A stretch of DNA of 62,958 nucleotides from the IMG/VR virus record IMGVR_UViG_3300044648_000169, positions 1 through 62,958 of that record; one strand, given 5' to 3'. Shown here one piece after another: positions 23,653 through 62,788 of this stretch (its first letter is position 1; every line of letters starts with the position of its first letter). The notes beneath the pieces are model-generated. The model ran no database searches and had not been told where the DNA came from. It worked only from the letters and a program-made list of their open reading frames with translations. Both the position numbers and the translations under genes were made by a program. The stretch is from a virus.

Positions 23653-23807
23653 GAGGTATTGAGCAACGCAGCGCGGCTGTAAACTGTCTTTACTTTCCGT
23701 TGCCATCCGCTGCATAATCCAACGCAGCACAAAGCCGCCGGACAGAAAGCACCGGCCAATAGAAACAGAGCGACCCTTTCCGTGATGGAAAGGTGTCACT
23801 GCACCAG
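23653..23807 (+). promoter_or_regulatory. gap before the lysis genes, possible late promoter
   Basis: Between the early operon and the holin gene lies a gene-free stretch. A CATAAT (23713-23718) could be a -10 but lacks a good -35. A hairpin (CCTTTCC with GGAAAGG, 23775-23793) follows. This is where a late promoter and antiterminator-sensitive leader would be expected; the identification is weak. Confidence 0.35.
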
Positions 23808-23840
23808 AAGCCCGCCAGCACCCGCTCGGCGGGCTTTTTC
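23808..23840 (+). terminator. intrinsic terminator before the late genes
   Basis: AGCCCGCC (23809-23816) pairs with GGCGGGCT (23828-23835), followed by TTTTT. It ends the early rightward transcript, and late expression would have to read through it or start beyond it. Confidence 0.88.
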
Positions 23841-23853
23841 GTTGGGAGCCCCG

Positions 23854-24264
23854 ATGAACCGACTGCTGGCCGCCATCGTGGCTTTCTTCCCTGTCATGGG
23901 CCACGCGGCCGACGCCTCTTCACTCGATGTGGCGCTGCGCCAGTACGGCTTCATGCTGAGCGTTGCACTCCTGGGGGGCCTTGTGTCGTGGATTCACAAA
24001 GTCCGCACCGGCAAGGCGCGGGCCTACAACGTGATGGGCCTGATCGGCGAGTTGGCCACCAGCGCCTTCGCCGGCCTGATCGCCTACTGGCTGTGCCAAT
24101 GGGCCAACACCCCCGAGCCGCTGATGGCGGCCCTGGTCGGGGTGTCGGGGCACATGGGCACGCGGGCGATCGACAAATTCGAGGGCTGGGCGGAAAACCG
24201 CTTCGGCTCCCTGGTTGGGGCAGACATGCCGCCGCCAGTCGACACACAGGAGAAGGCCCCGTGA
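23854..24264 (+). CDS. phage holin-like membrane protein
   Basis: A 136-residue protein. An N-terminal segment (MNRLLAAIVAFFPVMGHAAD) resembles a signal. Two or three membrane segments follow (FMLSVALLGGLVSWI, LATSAFAGLIAYWLCQW, and a weaker LMAALVGVSGHMG). Position directly before the lysozyme, with a 4-base overlap, marks it as the holin that permeabilises the inner membrane. Size and layout fit holins of beta- and gammaproteobacterial phages. Confidence 0.75.
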   Translation: MNRLLAAIVAFFPVMGHAADASSLDVALRQYGFMLSVALLGGLVSWIHKVRTGKARAYNVMGLIGELATSAFAGLIAYWLCQWANTPEPLMAALVGVSGHMGTRAIDKFEGWAENRFGSLVGADMPPPVDTQEKAP

Positions 24265-24701
24265 CCGACAACCTCAAGCGCCAGTTGAAGGGTGACGAGG
24301 GCGTGAAGCGCTCGGCCTACCAGGACCACCTGGGCTTTTGGACTGTGGGCGTGGGCCGGCTGATCGACGCGCGCAAGGGTGGCGGCCTGCGGCCGGTGGA
24401 GATCGACTTCCTCCTGCAGAACGACATCGAGGACCGCATCAACGCCCTGAAGGCGAAGCTGCCCTGGTTCTTCACCTTGGACGAGGCCCGACAGGGGGTG
24501 CTGCTGAACATGGCATTCCAGCTGGGCACCGATGGCCTGATGGCCTTCGCCAACACCCTGAAGCTGGTGGCCGCGGGCAAGTACGCCGAGGCGGCCGACA
24601 ACATGCTGCTGAGCCTGTGGGCCAGGCAAACCCCGGCCCGCGCCAAGCGCCTGGCCGAACAGATGCGAACCGGCGAGTGGCAGTACGCCCCGGGCGCATG
24701 A
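24261..24701 (+). CDS. T4-type phage lysozyme (endolysin)
   Basis: A 146-residue protein of glycoside hydrolase family 24. The catalytic triad pattern is visible: glutamate in GDEGVK, aspartate in YQDHLGFWTVGVGRLID, and the threonine of WTVGVG. LNMAFQLGTDGLMAFANTLK and WARQTPARAKRLAEQMRTGE complete the fold. It cleaves the glycan strands of peptidoglycan. There is no signal peptide, so it depends on the holin for release. Confidence 0.93.
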   Translation: MTDNLKRQLKGDEGVKRSAYQDHLGFWTVGVGRLIDARKGGGLRPVEIDFLLQNDIEDRINALKAKLPWFFTLDEARQGVLLNMAFQLGTDGLMAFANTLKLVAAGKYAEAADNMLLSLWARQTPARAKRLAEQMRTGEWQYAPGA

Positions 24702-52308: not shown

Positions 52309-53481
52309 ATGGCACAGCAAGGACTCGGCCTGATGCAGGCCTTGGGCGCCTACCAGCAGGGCCGCGCGTGGCGCGACAACCAGCAGCAGGTGACCCGGCA
52401 GCAGGACCAACTGGCCGAACAGAAGGCCCGCGAGGACAAGATCAAGGCGGCGAACCAGGCCGCGATCGGCTACCTCGATGAAGCCAAGAAGGCGCACGAC
52501 GCCGAGCAGGCCAAAGCCCTCGAAGAGTGGACCCGCACCAAGGGCTCGGGCGAGGGGTTCCAGGCCAAGCCCTGGCAGACCAACGACGCGGTGATGTTCC
52601 GTGCTGCGGCGGCCCGCGGCGACGCGCTGCTGCAGGGCGGGCTGTTCGACGAGTACGCCAAGAACCGGGCAGCCATCATCCCCATGCAGATGCAGGCCCG
52701 CCGGGCGGCCTGGGAGAAGTTCCAGACGGATGGAGACCACGGCGAACTGGGACGCGCCTTCTACGACACGGTGCCCAACGGCCGGCACGTCAAGGCCTAC
52801 GACGTGGCCGAGGCCCCGGGCCCGGACGGCAAGACCAAGGGCAAGAAGCTGCGCTTTCACATGGACGACGGCACCGTGCAGTTCATGGCGCCCGAGCAGG
52901 TGGAGGCCCTGGCCAAGCGGGCAATGACCGACCCGCAGAAGGTCATGGAGAACGAGTTCGCGCTGGACCTGTGGAAGGCCAAGGAGAAGGTGCGCGCCGA
53001 GGGTGACAAGGACGTCAACGCCCACAAGCACGGTCTGTCGATGCTCGAGATTCAGGAGCGCAACAAGGGCACGCAGGCCGTGGCCGAGACACGATCCGAA
53101 GCCACCACCGAGGCGGCCAAGATTCGCGCCAGCGCGAAGGGCAGCAGCGGCAGTGGCGGTGGCAGCAAGGGCTCCAACGTCCAGAGCGTGCAGACCGACA
53201 AGGACGGCTACAAGGTCATCGTCTTCCGCGACGGCACCACCAAGCCGATGAGCATGAACGGCAAGCCAGTGCGCGCGCAGGACTGGTCCAAGCGGGTGGA
53301 CAAGCTCGCCAAGGATTTGGGCAGCACCCTGGGTGGCTTCAAAAAGTCGCCCGAGGAACTGCGCGCCCAGGCCGAGACGATGCTGGCCGGCGAAGCCGCG
53401 CCCACCGAAGACGCCAAGCCGGCCGAAACGCCGAAGCCCACCAACAAGCCGGGCGTGAAGTTCCTCGGCTTCGAGAAGTGA
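52309..53481 (+). CDS. internal virion/ejection protein
   Basis: A 390-residue protein. The N-terminal 100 residues are a glutamine-rich coiled coil (YQQGRAWRDNQQQVTRQQDQ). A central domain has FYDTVPNGRHVKAYDVAEAP and FHMDDGTVQFMAPEQVEALA. The C-terminal end is charged and ends KFLGFEK. Position between other internal proteins and the giant gene suggests ejection into the host with DNA. Confidence 0.6.
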   Translation: MAQQGLGLMQALGAYQQGRAWRDNQQQVTRQQDQLAEQKAREDKIKAANQAAIGYLDEAKKAHDAEQAKALEEWTRTKGSGEGFQAKPWQTNDAVMFRAAAARGDALLQGGLFDEYAKNRAAIIPMQMQARRAAWEKFQTDGDHGELGRAFYDTVPNGRHVKAYDVAEAPGPDGKTKGKKLRFHMDDGTVQFMAPEQVEALAKRAMTDPQKVMENEFALDLWKAKEKVRAEGDKDVNAHKHGLSMLEIQERNKGTQAVAETRSEATTEAAKIRASAKGSSGSGGGSKGSNVQSVQTDKDGYKVIVFRDGTTKPMSMNGKPVRAQDWSKRVDKLAKDLGSTLGGFKKSPEELRAQAETMLAGEAAPTEDAKPAETPKPTNKPGVKFLGFEK

Positions 53482-53484
53482 CCC

Positions 53485-56400
53485 ATGCCGATTGCACGCT
53501 TTGAACTGCCAGACGGTCGCATCGGCCGCTTCGAGGTGCCGGACGGCACGAGCGAGGACGATGCGATCTCCCTGATACAGCAGCACCTGGCCGACAACCC
53601 GGTGGCAGACAAGGCCGCGCGCCCGCTGCCCGAAGGCGTGACGCCATCGGATGCCGGCGCCGGCCGCGGCAGCGTGCGCCCGCACGGCCCGACGCTGCGT
53701 GAACGGCTGTTCGATCCCAGCGTGCGAACCGCCCCGCAGCCTGTCCAGCGCCGCGGCGGCACGCGGTCGGAGGCTCGGCCGTTCGTGGCCACCGGGCGCG
53801 ACACCACGGCAGCCGAAGTAGGCGAGGCCATCGGCGGAACCCTGGCCGGCACAGCGGCCCTGGGCATGGAGAAGGGCCTGGGGGTCATGCTGGACCTGCA
53901 GAACAGCGAAGGCCGCGAGCCCGAGGCGCCGCCGCTGGACAACGCGCTGGAAGAACCGCCCGCCTACCCGCCGAACCAGCAGGAGGCGATTGCCCGGCAG
54001 AGCCTGCGCCCGGAAGTTGCCCAGCGCCGAGCGCGCGAGGCCAGCGCGCCGGCCGAGGCCCGGCCGTTCTCCACCGGCCAGAACATGGCCACCGACGTGC
54101 GCGAGGCCACGCAGAACCCGGTGGCGCGCGGCGTCGCGCAGGGCATTGGAACCATCGGCAAGGTGGGCCCGGGCGCACTGCGCATTGCGGCCGACTTCCT
54201 CGGCTCTGAGGGTCTGGGCGACCTGGCCAAGGCATCCGGCCGCGCCGCGGATGAGTTCTCCGGTGGCGTCACCAGCGATCTCAAGGGCAACGACAAGCTG
54301 GTGGCGCAGATCACCGGCTCCATCGTCAACTCGGCGCCTTCGCTCGCGCTGGGCGTGGTCGGCGGCCCGGCCCTCAAGACCCTCTTTGTCCAGTCCGCCC
54401 TGTCGGAATACAACGCCGGCCGCGATGCCGGGTTCGCGCCGGAAGAATCTCTGATGCGGGCCGGCATCATGGGCTTCGCCGAGGCCATCGGCGAACGCGC
54501 GGGCTTCCCTGAGCAGATCAAGCTGCTGAAGTCCCTGGCCAAGCACGTGCCCACCGATCGCCTATCGAAGGTCTTCGGCGACATGCTGGCCAAGGAGATC
54601 CCGGGCGAACAGTTGACCACCGCCCTGCAATTCATGGCGGACAAGGCGGGCCCGGCGGCGCTGAGCCCGGACGCCACGCTGGCCGACTACCTGGACCAGG
54701 CCGGCGAGACCCTGAAGGTCACCATCGGCCAGACGGCGGTGATGGGCGGCGGCCCGGCGGCGGTCGGCACCACGCGCAACGCGCTGCGCAAGGCGGACGC
54801 CGGTGCCACGTCGGCCGCGCCAGACCCCGCGGTGATCCTGGCCAGCGCCATCGACCAGGCCGCCAACGACTTCGGCCTGAGCCCCAAGGCCACCGCCGCG
54901 CTGCGGGACAAGGCCAACACCATGCCCGCCGAACAGGCCGCGGGCTTCGTGGAGCGCGCGCTGGCCGAGTTCGAGCGCGGCAACCTGGTGCGCAAGCCCG
55001 GCGCGGCGGCCGGCTTCAAGCAGACCCTGAACGACCTGGCCGAGAAGGCGCAGGCCGAAGCCGAGTCCCAACCGGCCGAGCCGGAAGCAGCGCCCGCGCC
55101 CGAAGCCGCACCAGAGCAAACGCGCTTCGACGCTGGCGCCATGCTGGAAGGCGACGACTTCAGCGGACTGGACACCCCGGCGCAAGCCGGCCCGGCAATG
55201 ACCGCCCCGGGTTCAAGTGCGGTCGAAGAAGGAAGCCCCGATGCAGAAGTAGAAGCCATTGATTCGTCGTCGACAGCGGCGCAGGTAGGAGTGCCTGCGT
55301 CGCCCATCGAAGGCGAGCCCATCAATCGCAACTGGTCGGCTTTCACACCCGAATCCGGCAGCCTTGGCATTCCCAGGGAGCAGATGCCCCAGGTGAAGGC
55401 TGAGCACCGAGGCGCGCTCACCAACTTCCTGAACGCCCGCGGCATCACACACGAATCCGGCGAGGTGCCGGCGCATGTGCTGCGCCCGACGCAAGCCGAG
55501 TTCTCGCCCCGCAAGGTCGAGCAGGCCGCCGACTTCACCGGCGGCAACCGGGCCGTGCTGGTGAGCAAGGACGGTTTCATCATCGACGGCACCCACCAGT
55601 GGGCGGCCGCCCGCGAGGCCGGCGCGGCGATCAAGGTGATCCGCTTCGACGCCCCCATTCAAGACCTGCTGCGCCTGGCCCAGCAGTTCCCCAGTTCGTT
55701 CTCATCGGGAGGTGCCAGCCGTGCTGGAAGTGGACCTGGATATGCCGAGCCTGCCGGACCTGCTGGAGCAGGGGCTGCTGACCCAGATGCAGGCGGACGA
55801 ACTGAACCACTGGTTCAAGGCGAGCTGCAACAGCCGGTACCCGCTGGAACTGCCGGAACCCCTGTACCGGGCCCTGCTGTACGCGACGGCGCTGGCGCAG
55901 ATGGACCTGGAGCGGGAAACGATGCACTGACGGTCGGCGCCGCGGTGGAGTTGGGCGGCAAGCCCTACACCGTCAAGGCCAAGAGCCCGAAGGTCATCCG
56001 CCTGACTGGCGAGGACGGCAAGGTCCGGGTCATCAGCAGCGACTCGGCCAACTGGTCGAAGATCAAGCCAGCGACTGCGAAGCCAGCAGCCCCCACCGAA
56101 GAATTCGCCGGCAAGCATGGCGAAGGCATGGCCGAGCACGTCGCCAAGGCCAACGCCATCCGCCTGCGCAAGGAGCGCCCGGACCTTGAATGGACCGTGG
56201 CCGAAGCCGACCCCGCCCGTAACCCCAAACTGAAAGCCGACCGCTATGTCGTTCAGGGCCGCCCGCTTCAACCCCAAGCCCCGGCAGCAGAAGCAGGAGC
56301 GCAGGCGGGAGGCGTGGAGCCGGCAGGATCAGCAGGAGAGGCCGCTGCCGCTTCCGGATCCGCCCAGGTGGAAGCCGATGGGCTGAGGGCGCAGCCGGCG

Positions 56401-59400
56401 CGCAAGACCCCGACCACCGCCCGCAGCAAGGCCCCGAAGGCGAAGAAGGCGCGCAAGGTCATGGACTCCTGGGTGCTGGGCGAGATCGTCCACCGACTGG
56501 GCGGCATCGGGCTGGGCCTGCGGGCGGACCTGTCCAGCAAGGCGCTGCGCGAGCGCACCAACAAGACAACCGGCAAGGTGACCCAGTACACCGCCTGGCG
56601 CGGCGACGGCATGCTGTTCCGCGCCACCGGATCGACCGACCTGACCGAGATTGCGCAGGTGCTGGAAGAGGCCGGGTTCCTGGAGCCCGGGCTGGTGGAG
56701 CGTGACTACCTCGAGGCCACCAGCCGGGTGCAGGACATCATCAAGGCCGAGATCGCCAAGCCCGGCAGCACGCAGGCATTCGGTGCGATCGAGGACCAGG
56801 CGCGCCAGCGCGATGAAGACGCCCGAGCCGAGCACGAGGAACGCGAACAAGCCGAACTGGACGAGTGGCTGCACGGCGAACTCGACATTCAGGCCGCCAA
56901 CCTCCCCGCCGAACCGGAGGCGCACAATACCGCCCTGGAACTGGCCCGCCTTCTGAACGAAGCGGCCGAAGCCGGCGTTGACGTCGACTCACTGAAGGAC
57001 GACTTCTTTGCATCGTCCGATCCCGAATGGAGCCAGGAAGCCTATGACACCCGCCTTGCCCAAACTCTCCGTGACGCTGCCGCCCGAACTCGTGTCGAAG
57101 CTCGACGCGATGACACCGGAACTGCGCGAGCAGACGATCCAGTCAGCCGCCCGGCTGGCGTCGATCAAACTCGGGCGCCGGGTGACGGGGCAAATGGACC
57201 TGACGATGCCATTCGATCCGAAGAAGAAGCCCGCCCAGGGCTGACCCTCGCCGCCGAGACCCCGGCCGACGCTCAGGCCAAGGCCGCCCGCGAAGCCGAA
57301 GCCCTCGCCTCAGAGCGGAAGGCCAAAGACGCCGAGCAGGCGCGGCTGAAGAAGGAAGCCGACGAGCGCGAGGTGCGCGCCCGGGCGGATTCCAGCGTCG
57401 ATGACTTCCAGCTCGGGCAGAGCGCGGATCAGCAGTTGTCGGGGCAGCGGGACATTTTCAGCGCCTCGCCGCCACCCAAGCGCCAAACCAAGGTCACGCC
57501 GCAGGTCCCCAGCGCCAGCCAACTCGCTTCCTTCATTGGCATCGCCGCGGACTCGGCGCAGGCGCTGCGGCGCTCGGATGTTGAACGCGTCTTGCGCGAG
57601 GCGCCGGTGCACTTCCGCGTCGGGCTCGCAGCCCACATCCAAGCCAGGCGGCCGGATCTCACTGACGAGGTGGACGAGGTGCTGGCGGAACTGAACCAAG
57701 CACCGCCGCAAATGAAGCGCGGCACCAGCGCCGGCCTGCCCCTGGCCACCGCCCGCAAGACCATCGCCGCCTTTGAGGCCCAGGGTGTGCGCAAGGTCAA
57801 CCTCGCCGCCACCCTGGCCGACATGCCCCAGGCCCGGCGCGACGCCATCCTGGCGACCGACCCGAGCGGCCGGGTGCGCGGCGCGTACTTCCCTAGCGCC
57901 GATGAGGTGTGGGTGATCGCCGAGAACCTGGGCAGCGAGCGCGAGCTGGTCGACGTGGTGCTGCACGAGTCCTTCCACCGCGGCCTGCACGTCACCTTCG
58001 GCGCCGATGGCGCCAAGCTGCTGCGGCAAATCTACGCCACCAACAAGAGCGTGCGCGTGCTGGCCGACAAGCAGATGGAGCGCTTCGGCCTGAGCAAGGA
58101 AGAGGCGACCAACGAAGCCTTGGCAGACTTGGCCATGACCAACCAGGTGCAGAACCTGAACGGCTGGACCCGGCTGCTGCGCATGATCCAGGCCTGGCTC
58201 GGCAAGATCGGCCAGGCGCTGGGGATCGAGTTGAAGTTCACCGACAAGATGGTGGTGGACCTGATCGCCGGGATGACGCGTGCGGGCCTGCAGCCGAACG
58301 TGGCGCCGGCGCCCGACACCAGCAAGCAGGACCGGGCCGCCGCCATCAGCGAGCAGGTGGCTGAGGGCAAGAGCTTTGCGGAGGCCACCAGCGAGGTGGC
58401 GTTGAGCCGCAAACCCAGCTACACCCCCGAGCAGAAGGCCGCCCTGGGCAAAGCCGGCGTGTCCGGTCCCGTGTCCCTGAAGGGCAAGCTGCAGCGCCAC
58501 TACAGCGCGGCGATGAACCTGCTGGCCGACCGGCACGCGCTGGCGGCCGAAGCGCAGCAGGGCCTGCTGGACCAGTTCACCGGCATCAAGCGTGCCGTGC
58601 AGCGCGACGTGGGCAACCTGCCGGTGGAGCAAGACCCCTACGTGGCGGCCCGGCTCGCCAACGGCGGCGCCTCTTCGGTGATGCGCGCCCTGCTGCTGCA
58701 CGGCCAGGCGAAGTGGGCGGCCAACGGCCAGCACCTCGAGAAGATCGACGGCACCAAGGGCCTGCTGGACATCCTCGCCCCGCTGGGCGACGACCTGAAC
58801 GACTGGTTCGGCTGGATGATCGGCAACCGCGCCGCGCGCCTGATGGGCGAGGGCCGGGAAAACAACTTCACCCCTGCCGACATCAAGGCGCTGCGGTCCC
58901 TGGCCACGCCAGCGAAGAAGGCGGCATTCCAGAAGGCGGCCCTGCAGTACGCCGCCTTCAAGCGCTCGGTGCTCGACGTGGCCCAGGACGCAGGCCTCAT
59001 CAACGCTGAGGCGCGCAAGGCCTGGGACTACGCCGACTACATCCCCTTCTATCGCCAGATCGACGAGAAGTCGACCTTCAGCCCCACCGGGCGCAAGGGC
59101 CTGGCCGGGCAGTCGTCGGGCATCCGCTCGCTCAAGGGTGGCGAGAACGCGCTGAACGACCCGATGGAGAACCTGCTGATGAACTTCAGCCGGTTGATCG
59201 ACGCCAGCCTGAAGAACAACGCCTTGCGCAAGACCGTCGACACCCTGAAGGCGGCCAAGTCCGACGCGGTGGTGAAGATCGGCTACGACATGACGTCGCA
59301 ACTGATCCCGGCCGAGCAGGTGAAGCAGCGGCTGGTGGAGGCGGGAACGCCGCAGCAGATCCTGGACGTGATCCCGCCCGAGGCCTTCGACGGCATGGCC

Positions 59401-61083
59401 AAGATGTGGGCGGTGCAGGCTCCGAGCGACCCGGACGTGATCCGCCTCATGGTCGACGGCAAACCACAGTTCTACCGGGTGGAAGACCCCCTGCTGCTGA
59501 AGGCGCTGACCAGCTTTGTGCCGTTCGACTTCCCCGGCCTTGGAATGATGCGGTGGTTCAAGCGCCTGCTGACCAGCACGGTCACGGCGGCCCCGGACTT
59601 CGTGGCCCGCAACTTCATCCGGGACACGGTGGCGGCGCAGATGATCACCCGCGACGGGTTCAACCCGGGCAAGTCGCTGCAGGGGGTGGCCAAGTCCCTG
59701 CGCGAGAGCGGCGGGTTCGAGCACATGCTGTTCGCCGGCGCGAGCTTCCAAAGCGGCAATGTCAACGCGGCCGACCCAACCGGGACCGGCCGAGCCATCC
59801 GGCGGGCGCTGCGGAAGAAGGGCTTTGACGCCTCGTCCGTCGACGCATTCACGGGCTCGGTCATCGACACCGGCCTGAAATTCTGGGAGAAGTACCGGCA
59901 CTTCAGCGAGGCGATCGAGAACGCCAACCGCGAAGCGGTGTTCGATGCAGCAACCAAGGGCGGCAAGACCGTCACGGCGGCGGCCTTCGAGTCCAAAGAC
60001 CTTATGGATTTCTCGCTGCGCGGCTCGTGGGCGGCCTACCAGATCCTCGCCGACGTGGTGCCGTTCCTGAACGCCCGCGTGCAAGGCCTGTACCGCCTGG
60101 GGCGCTCCGATCCCAAGCGCGTGGTGGTGCTGGGCCTGCTGATGACCGCGGCCACCCTGGCGCTGGCGTGGGCCAACGACGGCAACGACGAGTACGAGGG
60201 CCTGGCAGACTGGGACAAGGACACCTACTGGCACTTCTGGATCGGCGGCGAGCACTTCCGCTTGCCGAAGCCGTTCGAGCTGGGCGTGGTCTTCGCCACC
60301 ATCCCCGAGCGGGTGATGCGCTTCGCGCGTGGCCAGGACGGCGGCGGCAAGACCGCCGGCCGGCTGTGGGCCAACGTGCGCGACCAGTTTGCCTTCGACC
60401 CGGTGCCGCAGATGATCCGCCCGTGGATGAACGTGTGGGCCAACAAGGACACCTTCCGCGGAACCCCCATCGAGGGCATGGCCGACGAAGGCAAGCCGCC
60501 GCACCTGCGTTACTCGGCCAGCACCTCAGAAACCACCCGGGAACTGCTGGACCTGACCAAGCCGGTCACCGACCCGCTGGCCCTGAGCCCGAAGAAGCTG
60601 GAGTACCTGGTGAACGCCTACACCGGCGCCGCCGGCTTCTACGCCCTGGCCCTGTCCGACATTGCCGTACGCGCCATGACCGACGCCCCGCCGCAGCCCG
60701 AGATGCGCGCCGACGACATCCCTGTGGTCAAGGCCTTCTACCGGGTCAACCCGGCACGTGGCACGGTTTGGGAGAGCGACCTGTACGACATGCGCGCGGC
60801 GGCCGAGGAAATCTACCGCGGGGTCAAGGCGCTGGAGCGCGAGGGTGACCTGGAGCGCGCCACCGAACTGACCGAGGACAACTTGGACAAGCTCGGCGCC
60901 CGCACGGTGCTAGACGAGGCCGGCAAGCGCCTGGCGGGGATCAACAAGCAGCGCGACAAAATCTACCGCGACCCGGACATGAGCCCGGCCGAGAAGCGCC
61001 AGCAGCTCGATGAACTGCTGAAGCTCAAAGCCGAGATCGCGCGCAACGCGGTGGAGCACCCGGCCGTGACCGAGGCCTTCTGA
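53485..61083 (+). CDS. giant polyvalent internal virion protein (2532 aa)
   Basis: The N-terminus (MPIARFELPDGRIGRFEVPD, then SEDDAISLIQQHL) is a small domain typical of phage ejected proteins. A ParB-like segment lies near residues 660-730 (FSPRKVEQAADFTGG, VSKDGFIIDGTHQWAAAREA). A zinc metallopeptidase-like HEXXH (LHESFHRGLH) is near 1494, with a downstream glutamate (TNEALADLA) near 1540. Residues from about 2035 (DFVARNFIRDTVAAQMITRD) resemble the LPD38 polyvalent-protein domain. Such proteins enter the host with DNA and counter host functions or aid entry. Two linkers contain nested out-of-frame genes. Confidence 0.85.
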   Translation: MPIARFELPDGRIGRFEVPDGTSEDDAISLIQQHLADNPVADKAARPLPEGVTPSDAGAGRGSVRPHGPTLRERLFDPSVRTAPQPVQRRGGTRSEARPFVATGRDTTAAEVGEAIGGTLAGTAALGMEKGLGVMLDLQNSEGREPEAPPLDNALEEPPAYPPNQQEAIARQSLRPEVAQRRAREASAPAEARPFSTGQNMATDVREATQNPVARGVAQGIGTIGKVGPGALRIAADFLGSEGLGDLAKASGRAADEFSGGVTSDLKGNDKLVAQITGSIVNSAPSLALGVVGGPALKTLFVQSALSEYNAGRDAGFAPEESLMRAGIMGFAEAIGERAGFPEQIKLLKSLAKHVPTDRLSKVFGDMLAKEIPGEQLTTALQFMADKAGPAALSPDATLADYLDQAGETLKVTIGQTAVMGGGPAAVGTTRNALRKADAGATSAAPDPAVILASAIDQAANDFGLSPKATAALRDKANTMPAEQAAGFVERALAEFERGNLVRKPGAAAGFKQTLNDLAEKAQAEAESQPAEPEAAPAPEAAPEQTRFDAGAMLEGDDFSGLDTPAQAGPAMTAPGSSAVEEGSPDAEVEAIDSSSTAAQVGVPASPIEGEPINRNWSAFTPESGSLGIPREQMPQVKAEHRGALTNFLNARGITHESGEVPAHVLRPTQAEFSPRKVEQAADFTGGNRAVLVSKDGFIIDGTHQWAAAREAGAAIKVIRFDAPIQDLLRLAQQFPSSFSSGGASRAGSGPGYAEPAGPAGAGAADPDAGGRTEPLVQGELQQPVPAGTAGTPVPGPAVRDGAGADGPGAGNDALTVGAAVELGGKPYTVKAKSPKVIRLTGEDGKVRVISSDSANWSKIKPATAKPAAPTEEFAGKHGEGMAEHVAKANAIRLRKERPDLEWTVAEADPARNPKLKADRYVVQGRPLQPQAPAAEAGAQAGGVEPAGSAGEAAAASGSAQVEADGLRAQPARKTPTTARSKAPKAKKARKVMDSWVLGEIVHRLGGIGLGLRADLSSKALRERTNKTTGKVTQYTAWRGDGMLFRATGSTDLTEIAQVLEEAGFLEPGLVERDYLEATSRVQDIIKAEIAKPGSTQAFGAIEDQARQRDEDARAEHEEREQAELDEWLHGELDIQAANLPAEPEAHNTALELARLLNEAAEAGVDVDSLKDDFFASSDPEWSQEAYDTRLAQTLRDAAARTRVEARRDDTGTARADDPVSRPAGVDQTRAPGDGANGPDDAIRSEEEARPGLTLAAETPADAQAKAAREAEALASERKAKDAEQARLKKEADEREVRARADSSVDDFQLGQSADQQLSGQRDIFSASPPPKRQTKVTPQVPSASQLASFIGIAADSAQALRRSDVERVLREAPVHFRVGLAAHIQARRPDLTDEVDEVLAELNQAPPQMKRGTSAGLPLATARKTIAAFEAQGVRKVNLAATLADMPQARRDAILATDPSGRVRGAYFPSADEVWVIAENLGSERELVDVVLHESFHRGLHVTFGADGAKLLRQIYATNKSVRVLADKQMERFGLSKEEATNEALADLAMTNQVQNLNGWTRLLRMIQAWLGKIGQALGIELKFTDKMVVDLIAGMTRAGLQPNVAPAPDTSKQDRAAAISEQVAEGKSFAEATSEVALSRKPSYTPEQKAALGKAGVSGPVSLKGKLQRHYSAAMNLLADRHALAAEAQQGLLDQFTGIKRAVQRDVGNLPVEQDPYVAARLANGGASSVMRALLLHGQAKWAANGQHLEKIDGTKGLLDILAPLGDDLNDWFGWMIGNRAARLMGEGRENNFTPADIKALRSLATPAKKAAFQKAALQYAAFKRSVLDVAQDAGLINAEARKAWDYADYIPFYRQIDEKSTFSPTGRKGLAGQSSGIRSLKGGENALNDPMENLLMNFSRLIDASLKNNALRKTVDTLKAAKSDAVVKIGYDMTSQLIPAEQVKQRLVEAGTPQQILDVIPPEAFDGMAKMWAVQAPSDPDVIRLMVDGKPQFYRVEDPLLLKALTSFVPFDFPGLGMMRWFKRLLTSTVTAAPDFVARNFIRDTVAAQMITRDGFNPGKSLQGVAKSLRESGGFEHMLFAGASFQSGNVNAADPTGTGRAIRRALRKKGFDASSVDAFTGSVIDTGLKFWEKYRHFSEAIENANREAVFDAATKGGKTVTAAAFESKDLMDFSLRGSWAAYQILADVVPFLNARVQGLYRLGRSDPKRVVVLGLLMTAATLALAWANDGNDEYEGLADWDKDTYWHFWIGGEHFRLPKPFELGVVFATIPERVMRFARGQDGGGKTAGRLWANVRDQFAFDPVPQMIRPWMNVWANKDTFRGTPIEGMADEGKPPHLRYSASTSETTRELLDLTKPVTDPLALSPKKLEYLVNAYTGAAGFYALALSDIAVRAMTDAPPQPEMRADDIPVVKAFYRVNPARGTVWESDLYDMRAAAEEIYRGVKALEREGDLERATELTEDNLDKLGARTVLDEAGKRLAGINKQRDKIYRDPDMSPAEKRQQLDELLKLKAEIARNAVEHPAVTEAF
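55721..55930 (+). CDS. nested gene 1 within the giant gene (69 aa)
   Basis: From a GTG at 55721 with GGGAGG 8 bases upstream. The product MLEVDLDMPSLPDLLEQGLL, then TQMQADELNHWFKASCNSRY and EPLYRALLYATALAQMDLER looks like a well-folded helical protein. In the giant gene's frame the same DNA encodes a glycine/alanine/proline-rich linker, so coding constraint seems to lie in this frame. The role is unknown. Confidence 0.65.
   Translation: MLEVDLDMPSLPDLLEQGLLTQMQADELNHWFKASCNSRYPLELPEPLYRALLYATALAQMDLERETMH
57044..57244 (+). CDS. nested gene 2 within the giant gene (66 aa)
   Basis: From an ATG at 57044 with AGGAAG 3 bases upstream and GGAG further up. The product MTPALPKLSVTLPPELVSKL, then DAMTPELREQTIQSAARLAS ends in a basic tail (DPKKKPAQG). 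The strand-helix start suggests a ribbon-helix-helix-like domain. The giant frame in this place is a charged low-complexity linker, so this frame probably carries the function. Confidence 0.6.
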   Translation: MTPALPKLSVTLPPELVSKLDAMTPELREQTIQSAARLASIKLGRRVTGQMDLTMPFDPKKKPAQG

Positions 61084-61756: not shown

Positions 61757-62788
61757 ATGGCGAGCTTCAGGAAACGGCCCAGCAAGAAGTGGCCGAGTGG
61801 CGTGCAGGCGACCGTCGACATTGCCGGCGCTGGCGAGGCCAGCGAGACCCTGCCGAACATGCGCGAGGCGCGCATCTGGGCGGCCGAGAAGGAAGCCGAA
61901 CTTCGGGCCGGGCTGTCGGGCGCCTTCCCCAGGAAGACGCTGGGCGACGCCCTGGACCGGTACGAGCGCGAGGTGACGTCCCACAAGCGCGGCAAGCGCT
62001 GGGAGTCCGCCCGCATCGGGCACATGCAGCGCGAATTCCCTGAGCTGTGCGCCAAGGTGCTGCACAAGATGACAGCGGCCGACTGGTCGGCCTGGCGCGA
62101 CGCCCGGCTGCGTGGTGCGGGGAAGCGCCAGGCGGTGTCGAAGGGGACCGTGCAGCGAGAGATCAACCTGTACCGCAACGTCTGGTCGATCGCCGCCAAG
62201 GAATGGCGGTGGTGCGCCGAGCCCTCCCCGTTCCGCTCGATGCGCATGCCCGGCGACAACCCCGCGCGCCAGCGCATGGTGTCCTGGCAAGAAGCTCGAG
62301 CATTGGCCAGGCGGATGGGCTACCGCACCGGCCGCCGGCCCGAGGACAAGTCCGGCGAACTCGCCTACCTGCTGCTGCTGGCGCTGGCCACCGGAATGCG
62401 GACCGGGGAACTGCTGAGCCTCACCGGTGAGACCGTGGACCTGCAGCGCCGGGTGGCGCGGCTGGACGTGCACAAGACGCTGGAGAAGGCCGGCGTGCGC
62501 CACGTGCCCCTGCCCCGCCGCGCGGCCCGCCTGCTGGCGCCGCTGCACCGCGAGGGCCGGCTGTTCACGCTCACCGCGGACTCAGCCGATGCGCTGTTCC
62601 GCAAGTACCGCGACCAGCTCATGATCGATGGGCTGACGTTCCGGGACACCCGGGCGACGGCGCTGACGCTGTTGTCCAGGAGGGTGGATCTGCTGACGCT
62701 GACCAGGATTTCCGGCCACCTCGACCCGCGGCAGATCAGCGAGGTGTACTACCGCGAGCGGGCCGAGGACATTGCCGCGCGGATCTGA
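61757..62788 (+). CDS. int: tyrosine-type phage integrase
   Basis: A 343-residue protein with AAGGGG upstream of the ATG. The N-terminal 60 residues resemble an arm-binding domain, followed by a core-binding helical domain (LGDALDRYEREVTSHKRGKR). The catalytic domain has the first arginine in TGMRTGELLSL, a divergent box II (LTFRDTRATALTLLSRRVD) where the usual HxxR reads FRDTR, and ISGHLDPRQISEVYYRE with histidine and the nucleophilic tyrosine. It recombines the two att repeats; its stop lies 84 bases before the right one. Confidence 0.93.
   Translation: MASFRKRPSKKWPSGVQATVDIAGAGEASETLPNMREARIWAAEKEAELRAGLSGAFPRKTLGDALDRYEREVTSHKRGKRWESARIGHMQREFPELCAKVLHKMTAADWSAWRDARLRGAGKRQAVSKGTVQREINLYRNVWSIAAKEWRWCAEPSPFRSMRMPGDNPARQRMVSWQEARALARRMGYRTGRRPEDKSGELAYLLLLALATGMRTGELLSLTGETVDLQRRVARLDVHKTLEKAGVRHVPLPRRAARLLAPLHREGRLFTLTADSADALFRKYRDQLMIDGLTFRDTRATALTLLSRRVDLLTLTRISGHLDPRQISEVYYRERAEDIAARI

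Follow-up and report, generated by a model that had tools for sequence, protein, structure and literature searches.

Does the giant gene of this virus carry further, smaller genes within its own coding sequence? The question is raised by IMG/VR virus record IMGVR_UViG_3300044648_000169 (62,958 bases; the whole stretch is called the window here), which holds portal, major head and integrase genes and, at positions 53485 to 61083 of the plus strand, a giant open reading frame (ORF) of 2532 aa, taken from the ORF list. This ORF contains an LPD38 domain (residues 2235-2415; E value, 5e-46; 157.6 bits against the Pfam cut-off of 27) and is by that domain a large polyvalent protein gene. Two small plus-strand ORFs, A (55721 to 55930; 69 aa; GTG start) and B (57044 to 57244; 66 aa; ATG start), lie wholly inside it at offset +1, each with its own start codon and Shine-Dalgarno (SD) site, and the giant frame (the host frame) has no stop there. 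It is highly probable that both A and B are genuine genes for small proteins, nested in the polyvalent gene in its +1 register, and that they exemplify a general slot architecture. The giant gene would have fixed slots between its domains, with one small gene and its ribosome site per slot, and across each slot the host frame would act as a linker that has to remain free of stops but whose residues matter little.

The coding phase of the window switches at both sites. The GC content at third codon positions (GC3) of the giant frame is about 0.9 elsewhere and falls to 0.36 over A and 0.49 over B, where the small frames have values of 0.90 and 0.84, respectively. The codon log-odds over A were +0.55 for the small frame versus -0.55 for the giant frame, and over B they were +0.25 versus -0.32. 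Among ORFs of at least 50 aa within the giant gene, A has the top codon score. An SD site, GGGAGG, lies at 55707 to 55712 on the plus strand, 8 nt before the start of A. The start of B is preceded by a purine-rich, ribosome-site-like stretch at 57029 to 57039 on the same strand, with GGAG at 57029 to 57032, which was also picked up by the nested-ORF scan, and AGGAA at 57035 to 57039. The preliminary description of this DNA had reported both small frames with their own ribosome sites in low-complexity parts of the giant frame, and this holds, as the giant frame is rich in Gly, Ala, Pro and Arg over both. The structure model of A predicts three helices (pLDDT score, 71.8). B may resemble a ribbon-helix-helix protein; it has no Pfam match at an E value of ≤1 and no NCBIfam match at ≤0.1. 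Another ORF of the record, at 1266 to 1403 on the minus strand, weakly matches the C-terminal half of B (E value, 0.003).

A GC-rich, low-complexity linker rich in Ala, Gly and Pro could also hold open frames by chance, with an accidental codon-like composition. The low complexity of the giant frame at both sites fits this, as do the modest coding score of B, the weak homology and the low cost of joint openness at 67% GC: giant-frame openness over A (P = 0.285) and B (P = 0.38) is by itself unremarkable. However, the GC3 of the giant frame collapses in a few places only, and the small frame takes over there. SD-preceded ORFs that outscore their host are concentrated in giant polyvalent genes, and conserved nested genes occupy the same slots in relatives, some at 40 to 50% GC. 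Chance frames are thus an unlikely explanation for A and B.

The relatives of the giant protein comprised 30 loci in viral contigs and 9 loci in genomes (loci are given below by their L or G numbers), plus phage records. The nested-ORF scan that picks A and B also picks nested ORFs in L033, L003, L004 and L034. A conserved giant-frame domain (55279 to 55686, plus strand; residues about 599-734) ends just 5' of A. It shares 54.8% identity with Pseudomonas phage F116 and 66% with L033, and it has a weak ParB-like PHROG match (E value, 0.11). Directly after the same domain, L033 carries a 69-aa nested ORF that is like A in slot, +1 register, length and its His-stop ending. The slot of B corresponds to the one that holds gene C in L033 and L003. 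The conserved giant-frame segment directly 3' of B (57245 to 57440, plus strand) is recognized from its junction with these relatives: the host sequence right after B or C reads GLTLAAETPA in the window, GLTLEAQTPE in L033 and GLTLQAQTPE in L003 (GLTLxAxTP). Giant residues 1209-1338 are 46.7% identical to L003.

Nested families were found across many phages. A profile hidden Markov model (HMM) of family A built without the window gave 16 matches with E values of ≤3.2e-18, all in an open offset-1 frame of 1013 to 3855 aa; nine of these are seeds, and VvAW1 is counted twice (L127 and seed L172 are one phage). At all 30 loci of one viral scan, several of them near-duplicates, family E is nested at offset 1 within a giant open frame, with a GC content of E from 0.43 to 0.69. 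The same offset is seen in Skulduggery, Parlo, 45A6, D274, 1.232.O and ZX1. At three loci (L077, 9845 to 10000; L082, 3881 to 4042; L083, 9836 to 10000), a further short nested ORF abuts the start of E, forming a tandem nested pair. Relative to a long open frame, family F sits at offset 1 in all 11 named phages that carry it and at 70 of 71 viral loci. The host frame is broken at the remaining locus, L142, which was considered as a standalone, non-nested F that might give a clue to polarity; this was rejected, as the locus looks like a decayed remnant. Family D occurs, likewise at offset 1, in L034, L004, L069 and L112 and was not found in the named phages searched. Joining D and E into one family was without support. 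Searches for E in 10 and for A in 12 further genomes or records gave no match, and no Burkholderia phage was among the matches to F.

The nested families have no separate coding sequence (CDS) in the named phage records viewed, presumably because gene callers keep one frame. For A, B, D and E, no significant match was found in PHROGs, Pfam and NCBIfam (not each family against each library). Residues 2-64 of F resemble TnpV (PF14198) weakly (E value, 0.0035), and the score of 17.7 bits is below the curated cut-off of 27. In Itty13 (L126), a carrier of F, three minus-strand CDS are annotated over the giant gene, and the giant frame itself runs open on the opposite strand for 4112 codons. Across 41 loci with 443 kb of giant genes, a scan found 46 SD-preceded nested ORFs outscoring their host, all of them at offset 1 rather than offset 2; many of these loci were retrieved via a nested protein, and the count in giant genes is partly due to this selection. 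The other long genes at these loci (197 kb) held six such ORFs; four of them are copies of A, C or E in giants that are split or cut, and a fifth is holin-like. In the window, a holin-like ORF (23853 to 24264, plus strand; PHROG 785; E value, 1e-20) lies in another frame inside a longer ORF (23793 to 24701), which is probably a false one.

The starts of families E and F bear on whether free small proteins are made. Under programmed ribosomal frameshifting, the small sequence would instead form the C terminus of a truncated giant protein. In PBC5 (L128; 1767 to 8309), the annotated giant gene does enter the frame of F and end at the F stop, and PHROG 938 has F as its C terminus, so that this profile library inherits the PBC5 shift. 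However, the families are conserved from an SD-preceded start codon: SD sites precede 26 of 31 E starts and 48 of 51 F starts, whereas 9% of background ATGs (486 of 5237) have one. The F count leaves out 8 of the 71 loci (L142 included), set aside in advance for an unusual match start, and a further 12 at which the match began at neither ATG nor GTG. In addition, an in-frame stop is present within 30 codons 5' of the start at 21 of 31 E loci and 39 of 62 F loci. The annotated giant CDS crosses F at offset 1 in 9 of the 10 other named phages with F, and the unannotated frame of Itty13 does likewise. Since these 10 phages read through at offset 1, PBC5 may represent a sequence error or a private shift, and frameshifting is a very improbable explanation for the nested families.

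The host frame remained open over every counted copy of E and F. No host stop was observed over 32 E loci or over 70 F loci, where 172 and 281 were expected, respectively, when synonymous codons were redrawn from each locus's own usage. These loci are mutually related, and they were retrieved by the small protein rather than by host openness. At the E loci with the lowest GC content, 8.5 to 13 host stops were expected per E; for the Vibrio A genes, 5.8 to 6.5 were expected in each, and none was present in six of six. The absence of host stops requires selection for read-through. In the +1 register, a host codon would read positions 3, 1 and 2 of the small frame, and a host stop would therefore need a T at the wobble position of the small gene. 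Because wobble T is rare in GC-rich coding DNA, read-through would be cheap at 65 to 73% GC but not at 40 to 50%.

The missing stops also bear on whether the giant ORF encodes one protein. Its domains could be made separately by re-initiation, with the small genes being ordinary genes and the open frame incidental. Parts of the polyvalent domains are indeed held in separate ORFs in G004, L066 and a Rubrivivax contig, and over E and F the residues of the giant protein change freely, as described below. On the other hand, the absence of stops at all counted E and F loci is not expected of an incidental frame, and the DarB-like gp69 of phage JC1 (4515 aa) is reported among the virion proteins by mass spectrometry in the part of that paper available (PMC9144972). 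Separately made domains are accordingly quite unlikely, and the product of the giant gene is probably carried in the virion.

The two frames showed opposite substitution patterns. For family E (18 pairs pooled), omega was 0.47 in the small frame and 1.18 in the host frame. The substitution rate was 0.173 when a change altered both proteins, 0.366 when it altered the host alone and 0.147 when it altered E alone. Individual E pairs ranged from 0.15 to 1.05 in the small frame and from 0.18 to 1.71 in the host frame. For family F (9 pairs), the values were 0.30 and 1.18. In a control stretch 600 nt downstream, which is coding in the host frame only (6 pairs), the relation was reversed, with 1.05 for the pseudo-small frame and 0.40 for the host. 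The counting over both frames was simple (one step, kappa of 2), and the pairs share sequences and are not independent. E and F are under purifying selection as small proteins, and the small-frame values below 1, the host value of 1.18 and the reversed control indicate that the giant residues over them are not visibly constrained.

This result is the opposite of constraint confined to the giant frame, the outcome that the preliminary description had named as contrary to its proposal of nested genes within tolerated linkers. That proposal is borne out in the window by the coding phase and strongly in the relatives of the E and F type. The description had also called the small genes overprinted. 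The nesting stands, but the picture of a small gene written onto a giant one does not, since the substitutions show the small frames to be constrained and the giant frame to be the passenger.

The positions of the small genes relative to giant domains suggest what they may do. In 17 of the 21 loci displayed, E lies directly 5' of a helicase segment (TNGTGTGKT type); in ZX1, Pfam identifies the sequence after E as ResIII/Helicase_C_4. Among the exceptions, L104 and L105 have a different segment ahead of the same LPLLLP motif, no helicase is within the 150 residues shown in L103, and the helicase motif in L099 is interrupted after GTGK by other sequence. This L099 sequence, after 10367, is unlike the helicase of the relatives, and we take it to be intein-like. 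The domain after F in SopranoGao is Eco57I/N6_Mtase. D precedes a strawberry-notch-type helicase, with AAA_34/Helicase_C_4 in Pfam at three loci. In the window, the sequence directly after the slots of A and B gave no recognizable domain (Pfam, stretch after B). The host sequence up to the slot, with its GAGG site, is common to ZX1, SopranoGao and LASTA, but ZX1 continues with E and a helicase and the other two with the unrelated F and a methyltransferase. This swap at one slot suggests that a small gene and the domain that follows it are exchanged as a unit.

We tentatively propose that each of these small and largely helical proteins may be a partner of the adjacent giant domain. The proposal is drawn from the adjacency of E to a helicase, F to a methyltransferase and D to a helicase and from the helpers that DarB of phage P1 has. 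Such a partner could act as a folding or packaging chaperone or as an inhibitor until ejection. The model of E is all-helical (pLDDT score, 79.7); it had no PDB or BFVD match at an E value of ≤0.001 and no match with a Z score of ≥5 among 85 chains in a second look, and these absent matches do not establish a new fold. A broader and more doubtful extension is that giant DarB-like genes are two-frame cassettes, in which each enzymatic domain is preceded by a hidden +1 partner and the hidden partners, acting as chaperones, aids to packaging or inhibitors, are the Dar accessory factors that this class of phages otherwise lacks. The giant frame would then be selected mainly to stay open across the hidden genes.

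Several observations weigh against nested genes with free linkers or limit their extension to the window. No close relatives of A or B were found in the phage and viral contig searches, including single-sequence homolog searches with each, and constraint was measured in other families. The HMM of family A built without the window does not reach the window A at an E value of ≤1, and the strong E value otherwise obtained (2.6e-20) is circular because the window was then among the seeds. The score of the window A was reached by 9 of 5000 shuffles with nine seeds and by 263 of 5000 with seven seeds, and the score of B against C was reached by 103 of 5000. The coding score of B is modest; from its first start, it is +0.118, beside several antisense ORFs at about +0.1. 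Both frames of the Vibrio A genes look constrained, at about 0.22 (6 non-independent pairs, 59 changes), so that giant residues are not always free. In the single pair of D, the frames are about equally conserved (82/116 and 77/115). The partner role has adjacency as its sole basis. The sequence homology of A and B to the families of the relatives thus appears weak, and the case for A and B is carried by slot, register, length, coding phase and ribosome sites.

Translation of the small genes would start internally on the late message that also encodes the giant protein. The preliminary description had suggested that they could be expressed at other times than the giant protein. This is unsupported, because no sigma-70-like promoter was found in 53000 to 58500 (0.2 in shuffles) and ribosome sites inside the giant message are enough. 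The stability of RNA structure at the two nested starts was not above that of shuffles.

The giant protein of the window appears by its domains to be a polyvalent protein with DarB-like relatives and is not itself classed as DarB-like: the helicase and methyltransferase domains of a DarB-like antirestriction protein were not found, and LPD38 was the only Pfam match at an E value of ≤1. Its C-terminal part has a match in PHROG 15406 (DNA methyltransferase by description; E value, 3e-47) and gave no match at an E value of 1e-20 in a plasmid search. An integrase gene (61757 to 62788, plus strand; PHROG 1; E value, 1.5e-36) lies shortly 3' of the giant gene, indicating a temperate phage or prophage.

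Among known systems, Rz1 within Rz is likewise a small phage gene contained entirely in a longer gene of the same strand and read in a different frame, and the papers on JC1, Parlo and CSP3, in the parts available, call their own spanin genes embedded (JC1, PMC9144972; CSP3, PMC10269572). However, Rz1 and Rz form one small, functionally linked pair, whereas here several unrelated families occupy slots of giant genes, with the host frame as an almost neutral linker. The giant gene of the window belongs by LPD38 to the large polyvalent proteins (Iyer et al. 2017, PMC5512222); the accessible text of that paper does not contain the word "overlap," and its passage with "nested" concerns a hairpin fold. 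In the Dar system of P1 (DarB, Ulx, DdrA, Hdf and DarA), a giant virion protein is aided into the capsid by smaller proteins, and Ulx is listed as an aid to DarB localization in a table of PMC9024508, a source seen in part. The Dar helpers are listed as separate ORFs, and the likeness to the nested families drawn here is one of description. The likeness to TnpV concerns F only. No description of genes nested in DarB-like or polyvalent genes was found in the literature searched, a limited absence, with most subscription papers outside it; the accessible portions of PMC5512222, PMC10052179, PMC9144972, PMC6606913, PMC10269572 and PMC9024508 do not describe such genes.

The finding reveals several conserved gene families that had no separate CDS in the named phage records viewed. 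It also offers an example of overlapping frames in which the protein information resides in one and selection on the other acts mainly against stops, and this makes the origin of long linkers in giant proteins testable. Finally, the nested proteins may supply missing Dar helpers, as in CSP3 and its relatives, where, according to the part of the CSP3 paper available, a darA homologue was not detected though it likely exists (PMC10269572).

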